Source: Bacteriovoracaceae bacterium (GTDB lineage: Bacteria; Bdellovibrionota; UBA2428). From it: a stretch of 32,183 bases of DNA. The stretch is taken from assembly GCA_947467125.1 (NCBI GenBank), contig CANIGN010000005.1:1-32183 (forward strand). The letters are read 5' to 3'. Below, one piece after another: positions 9,377-14,132 of the stretch. The notes under the pieces were generated by a model. The model did no database searches. It was not told where the DNA came from and was given only the letters and a program-made list of their open reading frames with translations. Made by a program: the position numbers and the translations under genes. Positions within the stretch are counted from its first letter, which is position 1. Each line of letters opens with the position of its first letter.

Positions 9377-10936
9377 ATGGGTTCGAGTGAAATTTTAATC
9401 AGTCGGAGCGTGGGGGAAACTCGCGTTGCACGTTTAGAAAATGGTGAGTTAACAGAATTTTTAGTGGAACGTGAAAATGTTAAATCTTTGTTAGGAGGAA
9501 TCTACAAAGGAAGAGTTTCTCGAGTTCTTCCGGGAATGCAGGCGGCATTCGTTGATTTGGGATTATCAAAAACTGGGTTTTTATATGTTGATCTTGTGGT
9601 AGATCCTGAAGCTCAACACAGTCAGGCTATTGAAGATGTGATTGATCCAGAAGAAGCGCATTCTCAAAACGATGAGGAAGAGGGTGCTTCTGAGTTTAGT
9701 GTGAACCCAGAGAGAAGAAAAAATAGACCTATTCAGGAATTGCTCCGCGAAGGAGAAGATATTCTTGTTCAAGTTACCAAAGAACCTATGGGCACAAAGG
9801 GCCCCCGTCTTACGGGTTATGTGAGTTTACCGGGACGGTATTTGGTTTATCTTCCGGACAGTCATACCCTTGGGGTTTCACGAAGGATTGAAGACGCAGA
9901 AGAAAGAAATCGTCTCAAAGAAATTGTTGAAAAAATTCGTCCTCCAAAAGGCGGTATTATTGTTCGCACTGTTGCAGAAGGTGCAAGCGAAAAAAACTTA
10001 AGAGATGATCTTGAATATATTTTGAAGGTTTGGGGAAATCTAAAAAAGTCTTTTGAAAAGCAAAAATCAATCGGGCTTTTATGGCAGGATTTTGATTTGT
10101 CTCTTCGAATCGTTCGGGACCGAGTGACGGATGATGTGGAGCGAATTCTTGTTGACGATTTACATCTGTTTAAACAGATGACCAAATTTATCCAACTTTT
10201 TTCTTCAAAAATGAAAAAGAAAGTAGAGCTTTTTGTCCAAACAACAACGCCTCTTTTTGAAACATATGGAATTGAAACGGAAGTGAATCGAGCGACTGCT
10301 CGAAAGGTTTGGCTCAAATCCGGTGGATATATTTTGATTGATGAAACGGAGGCTTTGATTTCGATCGACGTGAATACGGGGCGCTTTGTAGGCAAAAGAA
10401 ATTTAGAGGAAACGCTTCTTCTTACAAATTTAGAAGCTCTCAAAGAGATTGCGTATCAAATTCGCTTAAGAAATTTAGGGGGGATCATTGTTGTTGATTT
10501 TATTGATATGGAAAGACTTGAACATCGCGAACAGGTTTATTCATCTTTTTGCGAAGAAATGAAAAAGGATCCTGTGAAGACTCAGGTGTATCCAATGAGT
10601 CCTTTGGGGTTGGTTGAGCTTACAAGAAAGAGAACAAGAGAGAGTTTGTCTAAAACTCTGACTTGTCCGTGTCCTGTCTGTGATGGATGGGGACACGTTG
10701 AGTCAAAAGAAACCTTTGCCTATAGAATTTTTAGAGCTTGTGAGAAAGAATCAAAGCTAGCGGTCGAAGGTCAGGGGCTTGTTTTGTATCTGCCTCCGGA
10801 TATGGCCACTTTTGTAACAGAGTCGCTGAAGGGTTTTTTGGAAGATTTGGAGAAAAAGCTTTCAAAGCGAGTCATGATTCGGGTGGACGAGGACTTATTG
10901 CCTCGGGAGTTTGAAGTTTACGCACATGACCTGTAG
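9377..10936 (+). CDS. rng: Ribonuclease G/E family endoribonuclease
   Basis: S1 region (GGIYKGRVSRVLPGMQAAFVDLGLSKTGFLYVDL), catalytic region IDVNTGRFVGKRNLEETLLLTNLEALKEIAYQIRLRNLGGIIVVDFIDM, and zinc-link-like CPCPVCDGWG. Confidence 0.95.
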   Translation: MGSSEILISRSVGETRVARLENGELTEFLVERENVKSLLGGIYKGRVSRVLPGMQAAFVDLGLSKTGFLYVDLVVDPEAQHSQAIEDVIDPEEAHSQNDEEEGASEFSVNPERRKNRPIQELLREGEDILVQVTKEPMGTKGPRLTGYVSLPGRYLVYLPDSHTLGVSRRIEDAEERNRLKEIVEKIRPPKGGIIVRTVAEGASEKNLRDDLEYILKVWGNLKKSFEKQKSIGLLWQDFDLSLRIVRDRVTDDVERILVDDLHLFKQMTKFIQLFSSKMKKKVELFVQTTTPLFETYGIETEVNRATARKVWLKSGGYILIDETEALISIDVNTGRFVGKRNLEETLLLTNLEALKEIAYQIRLRNLGGIIVVDFIDMERLEHREQVYSSFCEEMKKDPVKTQVYPMSPLGLVELTRKRTRESLSKTLTCPCPVCDGWGHVESKETFAYRIFRACEKESKLAVEGQGLVLYLPPDMATFVTESLKGFLEDLEKKLSKRVMIRVDEDLLPREFEVYAHDL

Positions 10937-11040: not shown

Positions 11041-11090
11041 CTGAAAATAGATGAAAATAGCTAAAAATAGCTAAAATCAGGCGAAAACAG
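11041..11090. repeat. Five imperfect, in-phase 10-bp repeats (ctgaaaatag / atgaaaatag / ctaaaaatag / ctaaaatcag / gcgaaaacag)
   Basis: Read directly; consecutive 10-mers with conserved AAAAtAG-like cores, immediately 5' of the DnaA-box cluster. Confidence 0.75.
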
Positions 11091-11098
11091 GTTCTTTT

Positions 11099-11195
11099 AG
11101 TTATCCACATTTTATGTGAATAACTTTCCACATAATCGTAAGAGCTTTTTAAAAGAGAGTTCAGATCGTAAGTCCTGTAGAAAGCCTGTGGATAA
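11099..11195. promoter_or_regulatory. DnaA-box cluster: TTATCCACA 11101-11109 (+), TTATTCACA 11115-11123 (-), TTATCCACA 11187-11195 (-), weaker CTTTCCACA 11124-11132 (+); oriC-like or dnaA autoregulatory region
   Basis: Two exact consensus 9-mers and one single-mismatch 9-mer within about 95 bp, upstream of a dnaA-family gene. Confidence 0.85.
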
Positions 11196-11302
11196 CTCTG
11201 GAGCAGGGGGGCTTTATGGCTCGCCGCACAAGCGACAATTTGGGGGCACTTTTTCTTCAAGTCTGTAATAAAACAGTAAGTCTCTAGAAAGAAACTCTTA
11301 TT

Positions 11303-12772
11303 GTGAGGGAAAATTTTATTGCCTCTACGGCAACTCGTGCGGAAAAAAACGGAGATTCTCATTCTCGCACGTCTTTAGCTCTTACAAAATACTGGGAACG
11401 TCATGAAGGCCTTGCGCAAATTGGTGAGCGCTATCTTTCAAGAGCAAAAATTCGCAAAGAAGCAGGCGGCCTTCTATTCATTGTTCCGACAAGTTTTCAT
11501 CTTAAAGTTATTCAACCTTGGAAAGAAGTTCTTGAATCGACACTCAATGAAAAAATTGTAGGCTTTGAGGTTTCGCGAGAAGAGAAAAAAACTCCGTCAG
11601 TTGATTTTTCTCGTGTGCAATCTCAGCAGTCTGCACAGAGCGAATCCTCCACTCAGCTTCCTTCTACGCAACTTTCTATTCAGCTTTCACCCGTGAATCC
11701 ACAAGTAGATCGAGTGGAAAGGGAACGCATGCGTCGAATTGTGGCGCCTTATTTTGTTTCTTCTCCTGCGTTAGAAGTTCCCACTCAGTTAGTTTCTCGT
11801 TGGGCAAATCAAATCAAATTTGGAAATCAAGTTTTGTGGGTCTATGGAGCGCCTGGAAGTGGAAAAACCACATTGCTTCGCCAGCTCAACCATTGGATCA
11901 GTCTTGATTATCGAATGGAATTTATTGATGTGATGTCTTTTTTCCACGAATGGAGAAAAGCTCTCGATCAAAACAACACCTTTGCTTTCATTAAAAAATA
12001 TCGAAGAGAAACGGATGTTTTCGTTCTCGAAAATATCGAAGAGCTAAGAGGAAAAGTCGGAACTCAGCAAGAGCTTCTTTTCACTTTGAATACGCTTTCT
12101 GATAGAGGGGCTTCCTTTGCGGTTTCAAGTTCTCTTTCTCCTCAAGATTTAAAAGAAGATTTGGATCCACAGCTTTATAGTCGTCTTTTGTCTGGTTTAG
12201 CTGTGGAATTGGCTGCTCCTGATAAAAGCTTTAAAGAAAATCTTTGGCGTCATTTAATGGCTCAACATGGATTATCTGAGGTTCAAGTAGATTTGGGAGT
12301 TCTTGAAAAACTTTTCAATTTAAAACTTTCAACAGCACGAAAAGTTCAAACTGTTTTCATCAATGCAATTGCGCGTCTGAGTGTATCGGGTCGTTTGCAG
12401 TTGCAAGATGTTTATGAATTTGAAGGCATTCATGCTCCTCAAGTTCTTCCGATGACCTCAACGGGGATGAATCCTCGTCAGTTGATAGAGCGAGTTGCAA
12501 AACTTTCTGGTATCAGCACGAGTGCTGTTCTAGGAAAAGGACGCCGCGCAGATGTGGTGTTGGCTCGCAAGTTTATCTTTCTTTCTCTTTCACGCATGCT
12601 GGGAATGACGAATACTTCCATTGCTCACTATGTAGAAAAAGATCCCTCTACTGTTTGTCATGCTCTCAAAACGATTCAAGAAGATCTTCTCAACAATCGT
12701 CATGTTGCTAAGCAGTGGAACTGGATATGCTCTGAGTTGGGTTTAAAAGAAACCTCTTACAGCACCCATTGA
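11303..12772 (+). CDS. dnaA: Divergent DnaA-family replication initiator (AAA+ domain plus C-terminal Bac_DnaA_C-like HTH); GTG start
   Basis: Walker A GAPGSGKTTLL; Walker B region KKYRRETDVFVLENIEELRGKVGTQQELLFTLNTL aligns with DnaA [33 protein letters not shown]; box VII-like LYSRLLSGL; domain IV VLARKFIFLSLSRMLGMTNTSIAHYVEKDPSTVCHALKTI aligns with DnaA [40 protein letters not shown]. Confidence 0.88.
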   Translation: MRENFIASTATRAEKNGDSHSRTSLALTKYWERHEGLAQIGERYLSRAKIRKEAGGLLFIVPTSFHLKVIQPWKEVLESTLNEKIVGFEVSREEKKTPSVDFSRVQSQQSAQSESSTQLPSTQLSIQLSPVNPQVDRVERERMRRIVAPYFVSSPALEVPTQLVSRWANQIKFGNQVLWVYGAPGSGKTTLLRQLNHWISLDYRMEFIDVMSFFHEWRKALDQNNTFAFIKKYRRETDVFVLENIEELRGKVGTQQELLFTLNTLSDRGASFAVSSSLSPQDLKEDLDPQLYSRLLSGLAVELAAPDKSFKENLWRHLMAQHGLSEVQVDLGVLEKLFNLKLSTARKVQTVFINAIARLSVSGRLQLQDVYEFEGIHAPQVLPMTSTGMNPRQLIERVAKLSGISTSAVLGKGRRADVVLARKFIFLSLSRMLGMTNTSIAHYVEKDPSTVCHALKTIQEDLLNNRHVAKQWNWICSELGLKETSYSTH

Positions 12773-12803: not shown

Positions 12804-14132
12804 GTGGGAGCCAAAAAAACATTTGTCCTCGATACGAACGTTCTTCTTTTTGATGCGCAAGCAATTTATAAGTTCAATGACAATGATGTGGTTATTCCCA
12901 TTTCAGTCATTGAAGAAATAGATCGCTTCAAAAAAGATTTGAATGAAGTGGGTCGCAACGCTCGTCAATTTAGTCGCAACCTCGATAATTTAAGGTCGAA
13001 GGGATCTCTCTCGACAGGAATTAAAATCGAGACGGGTGGAACTCTTCGTGTTGAGTTGAACGATGAGAAATTGCAACTACCTGCGATGCTTGTTGGCGAA
13101 AAAGCAGACAATAGAATTCTTGCTGTTGCTTATAATCTTTTAAAAAAGAAATCAGCTAAAGCTGTTGTCTTTATTACAAAAGATACAAACTTACGCCTCA
13201 AGGCAGATGCCTTGGGAATTCCCGCTGAAGATTATGAAACCTCTCATGTCAGCATTGAAGAGTTGTATTCGGGGATGGGAGTTTTTGAAGTTAGTTCCAA
13301 AGAAATTACAGCTTTTTATACGGATCGTCGTTTAGCTTTTGAGCGTCCGGATCTTTATCCCAATCAATTTGTTATTTTGAGAGATCAATTGAACCCCAGT
13401 CACTCAGCTGTCGGGCGTTATGATTTACGTCAAGGAGCGATTCTTCCTATCATAAAATCTCCAGAGGGAGTTTGGGGTTTGCATCCTAAAAACGTTGAGC
13501 AAAGTTTTGCTCTCGATTTGCTTTTGAATGATGAAATTCAATTGGTGACTCTTGTAGGAAAAGCGGGAACAGGAAAAACTTTGCTTGCGATTGCTGCAGG
13601 CTTGTTAAAAACTTTGGATGAGGGGAAATTTCAAAAGTTACTCGTTTCGCGTCCAATTTTTCCAATGGGTAAAGACGTAGGTTACCTCCCTGGTGATATT
13701 GAGCAAAAATTAAATCCTTGGATGCAGCCTGTGTTTGATAACATTGAGTTTTTGATGGGCGGAGCAGAGAATCGTCGTCGAAGTAGCAGTGTCGTGCGCG
13801 GAATGCAGGAACTTATTAATCAAGGTATGTTGCAAGTTGAAGCTCTCACTTACATTCGTGGAAGAAGTATTCCGAATCAGTTTTTGATTGTCGATGAAGC
13901 ACAAAACTTAACTCCACATGAAATTAAAACAATTCTTACTCGCGCGGGAGAAAATACAAAAATTGTATTAACGGGTGATTGCTACCAAATTGACAATCCT
14001 TATGTTGATAGCACGAGCAATGGTTTGGCTTATGTTGTCGAGCGTATGAAGCAGGAAGAAATTTCTGGTCATATTAGCTTGGTTAAAGGAGAGCGCTCGA
14101 TGCTTGCAGAATTAGCATCGAATCTATTGTAA
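12804..14132 (+). CDS. PhoH-family ATPase with N-terminal PIN domain
   Basis: PIN: KTFVLDTNVLLFDAQAIYKF...VFITKDTNLRLKADALG. PhoH: VTLVGKAGTGKTLLAIAAGL, LVSRPIFPMGKDVGYLPGDIEQKLNPWMQPVFDN, FLIVDEAQNLTPHEIKTILTRAGENTKIVLTGD. Confidence 0.95.
   Translation: MGAKKTFVLDTNVLLFDAQAIYKFNDNDVVIPISVIEEIDRFKKDLNEVGRNARQFSRNLDNLRSKGSLSTGIKIETGGTLRVELNDEKLQLPAMLVGEKADNRILAVAYNLLKKKSAKAVVFITKDTNLRLKADALGIPAEDYETSHVSIEELYSGMGVFEVSSKEITAFYTDRRLAFERPDLYPNQFVILRDQLNPSHSAVGRYDLRQGAILPIIKSPEGVWGLHPKNVEQSFALDLLLNDEIQLVTLVGKAGTGKTLLAIAAGLLKTLDEGKFQKLLVSRPIFPMGKDVGYLPGDIEQKLNPWMQPVFDNIEFLMGGAENRRRSSSVVRGMQELINQGMLQVEALTYIRGRSIPNQFLIVDEAQNLTPHEIKTILTRAGENTKIVLTGDCYQIDNPYVDSTSNGLAYVVERMKQEEISGHISLVKGERSMLAELASNLL

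Follow-up and report, generated by a model that had tools for sequence, protein, structure and literature searches.

Does a cluster of consensus DnaA boxes located upstream of a divergent dnaA-like gene mark a replication origin, and which DnaA protein is likely to read it? This question is raised by an intergenic region in a window of 32,183 nucleotides, the whole stretch of DNA analyzed here, which corresponds to contig C5 in a draft assembly (G000; 1.17 Mb in 89 contigs, 66% complete). The locus was compared with its equivalents in three other genomes of the class (G001, G002, and G003), in which the order of the genes is the same: rng, the intergenic region carrying the boxes, the dnaA-like gene, and phoH2. 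The features of the window are the following.

9377-10936, plus strand, rng (RNase E/G family), upstream neighbor, order conserved
11044-11093, plus strand, five tandem decamers, consensus AAAAYAGSYA, with A-tracts phased every 10 bp
11101-11109, plus strand, DnaA box TTATCCACA, (+) arm of the head-to-head pair
11115-11123, minus strand, DnaA box TTATTCACA, (-) arm of the head-to-head pair
11124-11132, plus strand, weak DnaA box CTTTCCACA, 7/9
11187-11195, minus strand, distal DnaA box TTATCCACA
11303-12772, plus strand, dnaA paralog, 489 aa, GTG start
11669-11686, plus strand, codons of QLSIQL (residues 123-128), resembling the Hda clamp motif QLSLPL
12635-12652, plus strand, codons of EKDPST, altered recognition helix (E. 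coli GRDHTT)
12804-14132, plus strand, PhoH2-type gene (PIN + PhoH), downstream neighbor, order conserved

The initial annotation had described canonical boxes, two of them forming an inverted repeat, and exact 9-mers were indeed found at these positions. AGTTATCCACAT (11099-11110) and ATGTGAATAACT (11114-11125) face each other across a gap of 3 bp and are complementary at 11 of 12 positions. The second exact box, TTATCCACA on the minus strand at 11187-11195, and the weaker box, CTTTCCACA on the plus strand with two mismatches, were recovered as described. No equivalent of the weak box was found in the relatives, and the (-) arm of the pair is the most constant box among the four genomes of the class. 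The raw number of boxes is ordinary, since three exact copies of TTATNCACA are present in the 32-kb window and 8 of 100 shuffled sequences reach three. According to a genome-wide pattern search, G000 contains 49 exact TTATNCACA sites per 1.17 Mb, and the only triple within 100 bp is located at this locus; simple arithmetic from this density gives an expectation of ~0.0004 triples. In the 420 bp located 5' of the start codon, three boxes match at 8/9 positions or better, versus 0.075 expected, a number reached in none of 1,000 dinucleotide shuffles. The DnaA boxes are real and clustered beyond chance.

A canonical dnaA gene is present in G001 and G002 in addition to the dnaA-like gene, indicating that the window's dnaA-like gene is a paralog. 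In both genomes, dnaN adjoins the canonical dnaA, on a contig other than that of the paralog, whereas the neighbors of the boxed locus are rng and phoH2. A search for dnaN in G000 and G003 found none. True absence of canonical dnaA from the species represented by G000 was rejected because this assembly, only 66% complete, also lacks dnaN; incompleteness is the best explanation for the missing gene.

The initial annotation implied that replication may start at the boxed locus and proposed GC skew as a check. The box cluster, the adjacent gene of the dnaA family, and the AT-rich repeat array do give the locus the layout of an origin or of iterons, as would be expected for the chromosomal origin or an active second origin. 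The skew, however, argued against an origin in the window, G001, and G002. Values on the left and right of the locus were +0.124 and +0.122 in the window (up to 20 kb), +0.087 and +0.087 in G001, and -0.026 and -0.072 in G002, and one sign prevailed throughout the 32-kb window and the G001 contig (89 kb), as well as along almost the full length of the G002 contig (256 kb), including across minus-strand genes. In G001, the cumulative skew reaches its minimum on contig C59, at position 74,295, which falls within the spacer between dnaA and dnaN; this spacer carries oriC-type boxes. A genome of family f3 (G028) provides a further example of a paralog locus off the skew minimum, at a distance of 41 kb on the same contig; the minimum on its canonical dnaA contig is about 5 kb from dnaA. 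Canonical dnaA and dnaN are jointly missing from the two incomplete assemblies and jointly present in the two fuller ones, as also argues against an origin beside the paralog. Skew is indirect evidence, in that it reveals the habitual start of replication and not the capacity of a given site. The absence of a skew switch at the boxed locus, together with the position of the minimum in the dnaA-dnaN spacer of G001, makes it very unlikely that the locus is oriC, and we assign a similarly very low probability to an active second origin. The origin was found elsewhere, beside the canonical dnaA and dnaN. The G028 minimum that lies 41 kb from the paralog is on contig C6 (L101-L108, about 124 kb), which lacks canonical dnaA; a rearrangement, a misassembly, or an unrecognized feature are possible explanations.

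Inspection of the region directly upstream of the boxes revealed a decamer array that the initial annotation had overlooked and that belongs to the same element. Its units are, in order, AAAATAGATG, AAAATAGCTA, AAAATAGCTA, AAATCAGGCG, and AAAACAGGTT. The best chain of four units scores 37/40, in comparison to 22.7 in shuffled sequences, and none of 1,000 shuffles reached this value. Pattern searches identified the array as the only place with two mismatches or fewer in G000; no other match in G002 or G003 was as good as the array, and one other place equaled it in G001. Arrays of four to five units occupy the same position in all four genomes of the class. Elsewhere in these genomes the decamer pattern was not commoner than a reversed control pattern, and other uses of the array were rejected on this basis. 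DnaA-trios were likewise rejected, since trios are repeats of 3 bp (PMC8287927) and the array has a period of 10 bp.

The module is thus composed, in order, of the decamer array, the head-to-head box pair, the distal box, and the paralog gene, and it precedes the same gene in the four genomes of the class. An additional coding sequence separates rng from the module in G002 and G003, indicating that the module belongs to the paralog gene. The distance between the start of the array and the (-) box of the pair is 71, 71, 71, and 72 bp in the four genomes, and the distal (-) boxes follow after 72, 59, 59, and 71 bp. In the three relatives, the distal box is doubled, with a second and often weaker box 11 bp further on in the same orientation. 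Conservation of the boxes in related genomes, another check proposed at the outset, was therefore observed, with the reservation that only G000 and G001 have a strong (+) box in the pair; in G002 and G003 this box is degenerate. A separate cluster of three exact TTATNCACA boxes is located in G002 between an HDOD-like gene and another open reading frame (L085, 2116-2256; G002:C12:18615-18755); two of these boxes are 11 bp apart, like the boxes before the paralog.

The same architecture extends beyond the class. Paralogs of family f3, which are much more DnaA-like, are preceded by an A-rich array of ~10-bp units, a head-to-head pair with a 3-bp gap, and a second (-) box. The distance between the two (-) boxes is exactly 126 bp at seven of the eight f3 loci inspected (L039, L040, L042, L043, L045, L117, and L132) and 137 bp at L044; it is 125 bp, with a degenerate (+) partner, at L119 of family f16. 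Traces of the module were detected in one genome of a third family. In ten loci of two families, the centers of the A-tracts are located at about -16, -26, -36, and -46 from the (+) box. The power of this common register is 7.46, in comparison to a maximum of 6.30 in 5,000 random re-registrations, a result somewhat favored by the weak (+) boxes of G002, G003, and G034, which were placed by alignment. The f3 loci also share a conserved TATAA element near the start codon of the paralog, and a consensus scan of the window's intergenic region for a sigma-70-like promoter found none. Boxes were looked for and not found upstream of the f8 paralogs. No box matching at 8/9 positions or better was found upstream of canonical dnaA in G001, nor upstream of most of the f8 DnaA genes and canonical dnaA genes examined. 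In eight f3 genomes, a second head-to-head pair, ATCCACA-NNN-TGTGGAT with a gap of 3 bp, lies in the mutS-trmJ gap or ~100 to 190 bp upstream of trmJ, with mutS and trmJ-grpE-dnaJ as neighbors (L140-L147). This pair could be a further site of DnaA regulation or an operator bound by some other protein.

Conservation of the clustering, the spacing, and the register speaks against boxes arising by chance or belonging to a hairpin of the leader RNA in place of protein-binding sites. The strand spanning 11090-11205 does fold better than shuffled sequences (z, -3.29), but the fold consists mostly of the pairing of the inverted boxes and has no match in Rfam. We therefore rejected the RNA hairpin, whose fold is a by-product of the inverted boxes, and consider this entire line of explanation extremely unlikely.

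Conserved DnaA boxes upstream of a gene are one feature expected of a DnaA-regulated promoter, and we consider it probable that the module responds to DnaA and controls the dnaA-paralog gene, and that it is not an origin. The initial annotation had left two possibilities for the protein that reads the boxes, canonical DnaA or a divergent protein that keeps the canonical specificity. Canonical DnaA is the simplest candidate and the likely reader, since the oriC boxes beside canonical dnaA in G001 and G002 are also TTATCCACA and close variants thereof, and the consensus box of Bdellovibrio DnaA is NN(A/T)TCCACA (PMC5124646). The canonical DnaA proteins of G001 and G002 (L051 and L052) themselves contain RHHTT where E. 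coli DnaA contains RDHTT (D433H), as do those of G005, G013, and G021 in family f3; the oriC boxes of G001 and G002 remain TTATCCACA despite this substitution.

The protein encoded by the paralog gene was examined in this light. Its divergence, including the change from DHTT to DPST, had been correctly described; the protein reads EKDPST where E. coli DnaA reads GRDHTT. One residue is deleted before EKDPST, His434 is replaced by Pro, and Thr435 is replaced by Ser. In E. coli DnaA, bases are contacted by R399, P423, D433, H434, T435, and H439 (PMC7561715). The class paralogs retain the equivalents of R399 (K in G003), D433, and H439; H434 is replaced by Pro or Ala, T435 is replaced by Ser, P423 is lost, and one residue is missing before R432. 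Since T435S is common in the DnaA proteins of epsilon- and deltaproteobacteria (PMC5043019), the unusual changes are those at position 434 and the deletion, the latter being common to the f3 and f8 paralogs. The class paralogs also share a C-terminal tail, QWNWICxxLG (QWHWVC in G003; positions 12721-12750 of the window), that is absent from the other DnaA proteins aligned.

These changes bear on the possibility that the paralog itself reads the module, the decamers possibly being its own sites. The reverse complement of the decamer, TTTTTRSCT, keeps the T-rich half of the DnaA box, and the change in the other half is what an altered recognition helix might predict. Some base-contacting residues are kept (R399 or K, D433, and H439) and others are not (H434 and P423), with one loop residue gone. 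The array and the gene also co-occur in the four genomes of the class, and the array is nearly unique in each. Against autoregulation, the boxes themselves remain TTATCCACA, and phased A-tracts also precede the paralogs of f3, whose helices retain RDHAT, so that DNA bending explains the array without any change in specificity. We regard autoregulation as unlikely.

The arrangement of the boxes also recalls the cores of the E. coli DARS sites, which comprise three DnaA boxes, two of which (I and II) are in opposing orientations; these cores work through DnaA molecules paired head to head, and IHF bends the DNA (PMC8682772). Three boxes, two of them opposing, are likewise found in the module, and the phased A-tracts could replace the bending protein. 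The module might accordingly resemble DARS or datA in acting on the nucleotide state or the supply of canonical DnaA, and lie beside the paralog by descent; the occurrence of the same pair in f3 away from any dnaA gene, between mutS and trmJ-grpE-dnaJ, would fit this proposal. However, the association of the module with the paralog gene persists across families and across changes in gene context, and the third box is 60 to 126 bp away; the comparison with DARS covered the layout of the boxes. A DARS- or datA-like function thus appears quite unlikely to us.

If the module is a control region of the paralog gene, as we favor, the function of the paralog becomes the question. The protein combines a predicted domain-I-like N-terminal fold, a linker with a clamp-type hexapeptide, an AAA+ domain, and an altered domain IV. 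It scores below the cutoff of the DnaA equivalog (TIGR00362, 122.6 versus 343.9 bits), far below that of the Hda equivalog (TIGR03420, 40.1 versus 194.8 bits), and above the gathering scores of Pfam Bac_DnaA (60.9 bits) and Bac_DnaA_C (37.7 bits). Its sequence is nearer to DnaA than to Hda, and it has a domain IV, unlike Hda, which comprises the AAA+ domain alone. In a structure model (mean pLDDT, 71.9; pTM, 0.43), the AAA+ domain and domain IV were confidently predicted; the matches of the model were DnaA first and then Hda, and the model does not decide the function. The class paralogs are sister to those of f3 in a tree, tentatively, as the branch is very long (3.8).

E. coli Hda (QLSLPL) and Caulobacter HdaA (QFKLPL) contact the clamp through a motif required for this interaction, and Hda requires both the motif and an arginine finger (PMC3836487). 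By pattern, a hexapeptide of this type aligns in all four class paralogs (QLSIQL, QVSLPL, QIHMPL, and QLAMSF), 57 to 62 residues before the position corresponding to residue 170 of E. coli DnaA, where the Walker A strand begins, within a linker that is otherwise unalignable. The strict form QxSLPL occurs only in G001 (QVSLPL); QLSIQL and QLAMSF are imperfect. None of the canonical DnaA linkers of the class contains such a hexapeptide. The arginine finger (four of four) and Walker A are kept, and Walker B reads EN or ED, versus DD in DnaA and DN in E. coli Hda. A search for the Bac_DnaA family detected no separate Hda in G001 or G002. The f3 paralogs have neither the hexapeptide nor the motif QLDLL that f8 paralogs carry instead. 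The latter proteins (L047-L050) are short, with QLDLL near the N terminus in four of four, and branch inside the f8 canonical DnaA clade; they are perhaps an independent clamp-tethered derivative of DnaA. An Hda-like role for the class paralogs is plausible, and no more than that. We view the paralog only tentatively, at less than even odds, as a DnaA-derived analogue of Hda; for the locus as a whole, our best guess is a gene under DnaA control whose product restrains DnaA. Such a role cannot explain the module in general, since the f3 paralogs carry the module without the hexapeptide; the shared module predates the hexapeptide or is independent of it.

Combining these elements, the phased A-tracts would curve the DNA and fix the geometry of the head-to-head pair. 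By binding to the pair and to the distal box or boxes, 60 to 130 bp nearer the gene, canonical DnaA would set transcription of the paralog, perhaps by looping. Transcriptional control by DnaA is known for dnaA itself and, in Caulobacter, for hdaA (PMC8203912). Through the hexapeptide, the paralog might then be tethered to DnaN where DNA has just been replicated, and the arginine finger of the paralog might stimulate ATP hydrolysis on canonical DnaA, thereby closing a feedback loop. The sites, their conservation, spacing, and register, the identical boxes at the canonical oriC, and the lack of a skew switch are direct observations. We infer canonical DnaA as the bound protein and an effect on transcription, as well as the sign of this effect and the feedback role. 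The complete scheme is doubtful, namely, that a full-length duplicate of DnaA does the work of Hda as a clamp-tethered DnaA inactivator, its gene being switched by DnaA through a phase-locked enhancer of A-tracts and head-to-head boxes older than the class, in a DnaA-to-DnaA feedback loop.

According to a review published in 2023, no regulator of replication initiation has been identified in Bdellovibrio bacteriovorus (PMC11318664). If the genomes compared here are of the same phylum, as we suppose, a dnaA paralog with apparent control by DnaA and a clamp-type motif is a concrete candidate for such a regulator in relatives of Bdellovibrio. The module also shows that an origin can be wrongly inferred from a DnaA-box cluster near a dnaA-like gene, and its spacing, with A-tracts ~16, 26, 36, and 46 bp upstream of a head-to-head pair, is a searchable signature.

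Comparison with known systems places the module as follows. The oriC of B. bacteriovorus contains DnaA boxes of the same type, NN(A/T)TCCACA (PMC5124646), but is a dnaA-dnaN origin with a skew switch, which the boxed locus lacks. Plasmid iteron origins similarly have tandem repeats beside DnaA boxes near an initiator-like gene, whereas the units found here are of the 10-bp bending type in a chromosomal housekeeping context devoid of a skew switch. Hda and HdaA, which act in RIDA, share with the paralog a clamp-type hexapeptide preceding an AAA+ domain of the DnaA family with an arginine finger, and the Walker B motifs are comparable (EN or ED in the paralogs, DN in E. coli Hda); the paralog differs in retaining a domain IV of the DnaA type and a region resembling domain I, and its sequence is closer to DnaA than to Hda. 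The cores of E. coli DARS1 and DARS2 resemble the module in having three DnaA boxes, two of them opposing, and DNA bending, in contrast to which the module has a built-in bending sequence, a distal box 60 to 126 bp away, and a constant position upstream of a dnaA paralog within the family studied. In the DnaA-regulated promoters of E. coli dnaA and Caulobacter hdaA, boxes are also located upstream of a gene of the DnaA family and DnaA acts as a transcription factor; here, the target is a divergent paralog, and the boxes form a head-to-head pair locked in phase with both a distal box and a decamer array of A-tracts.
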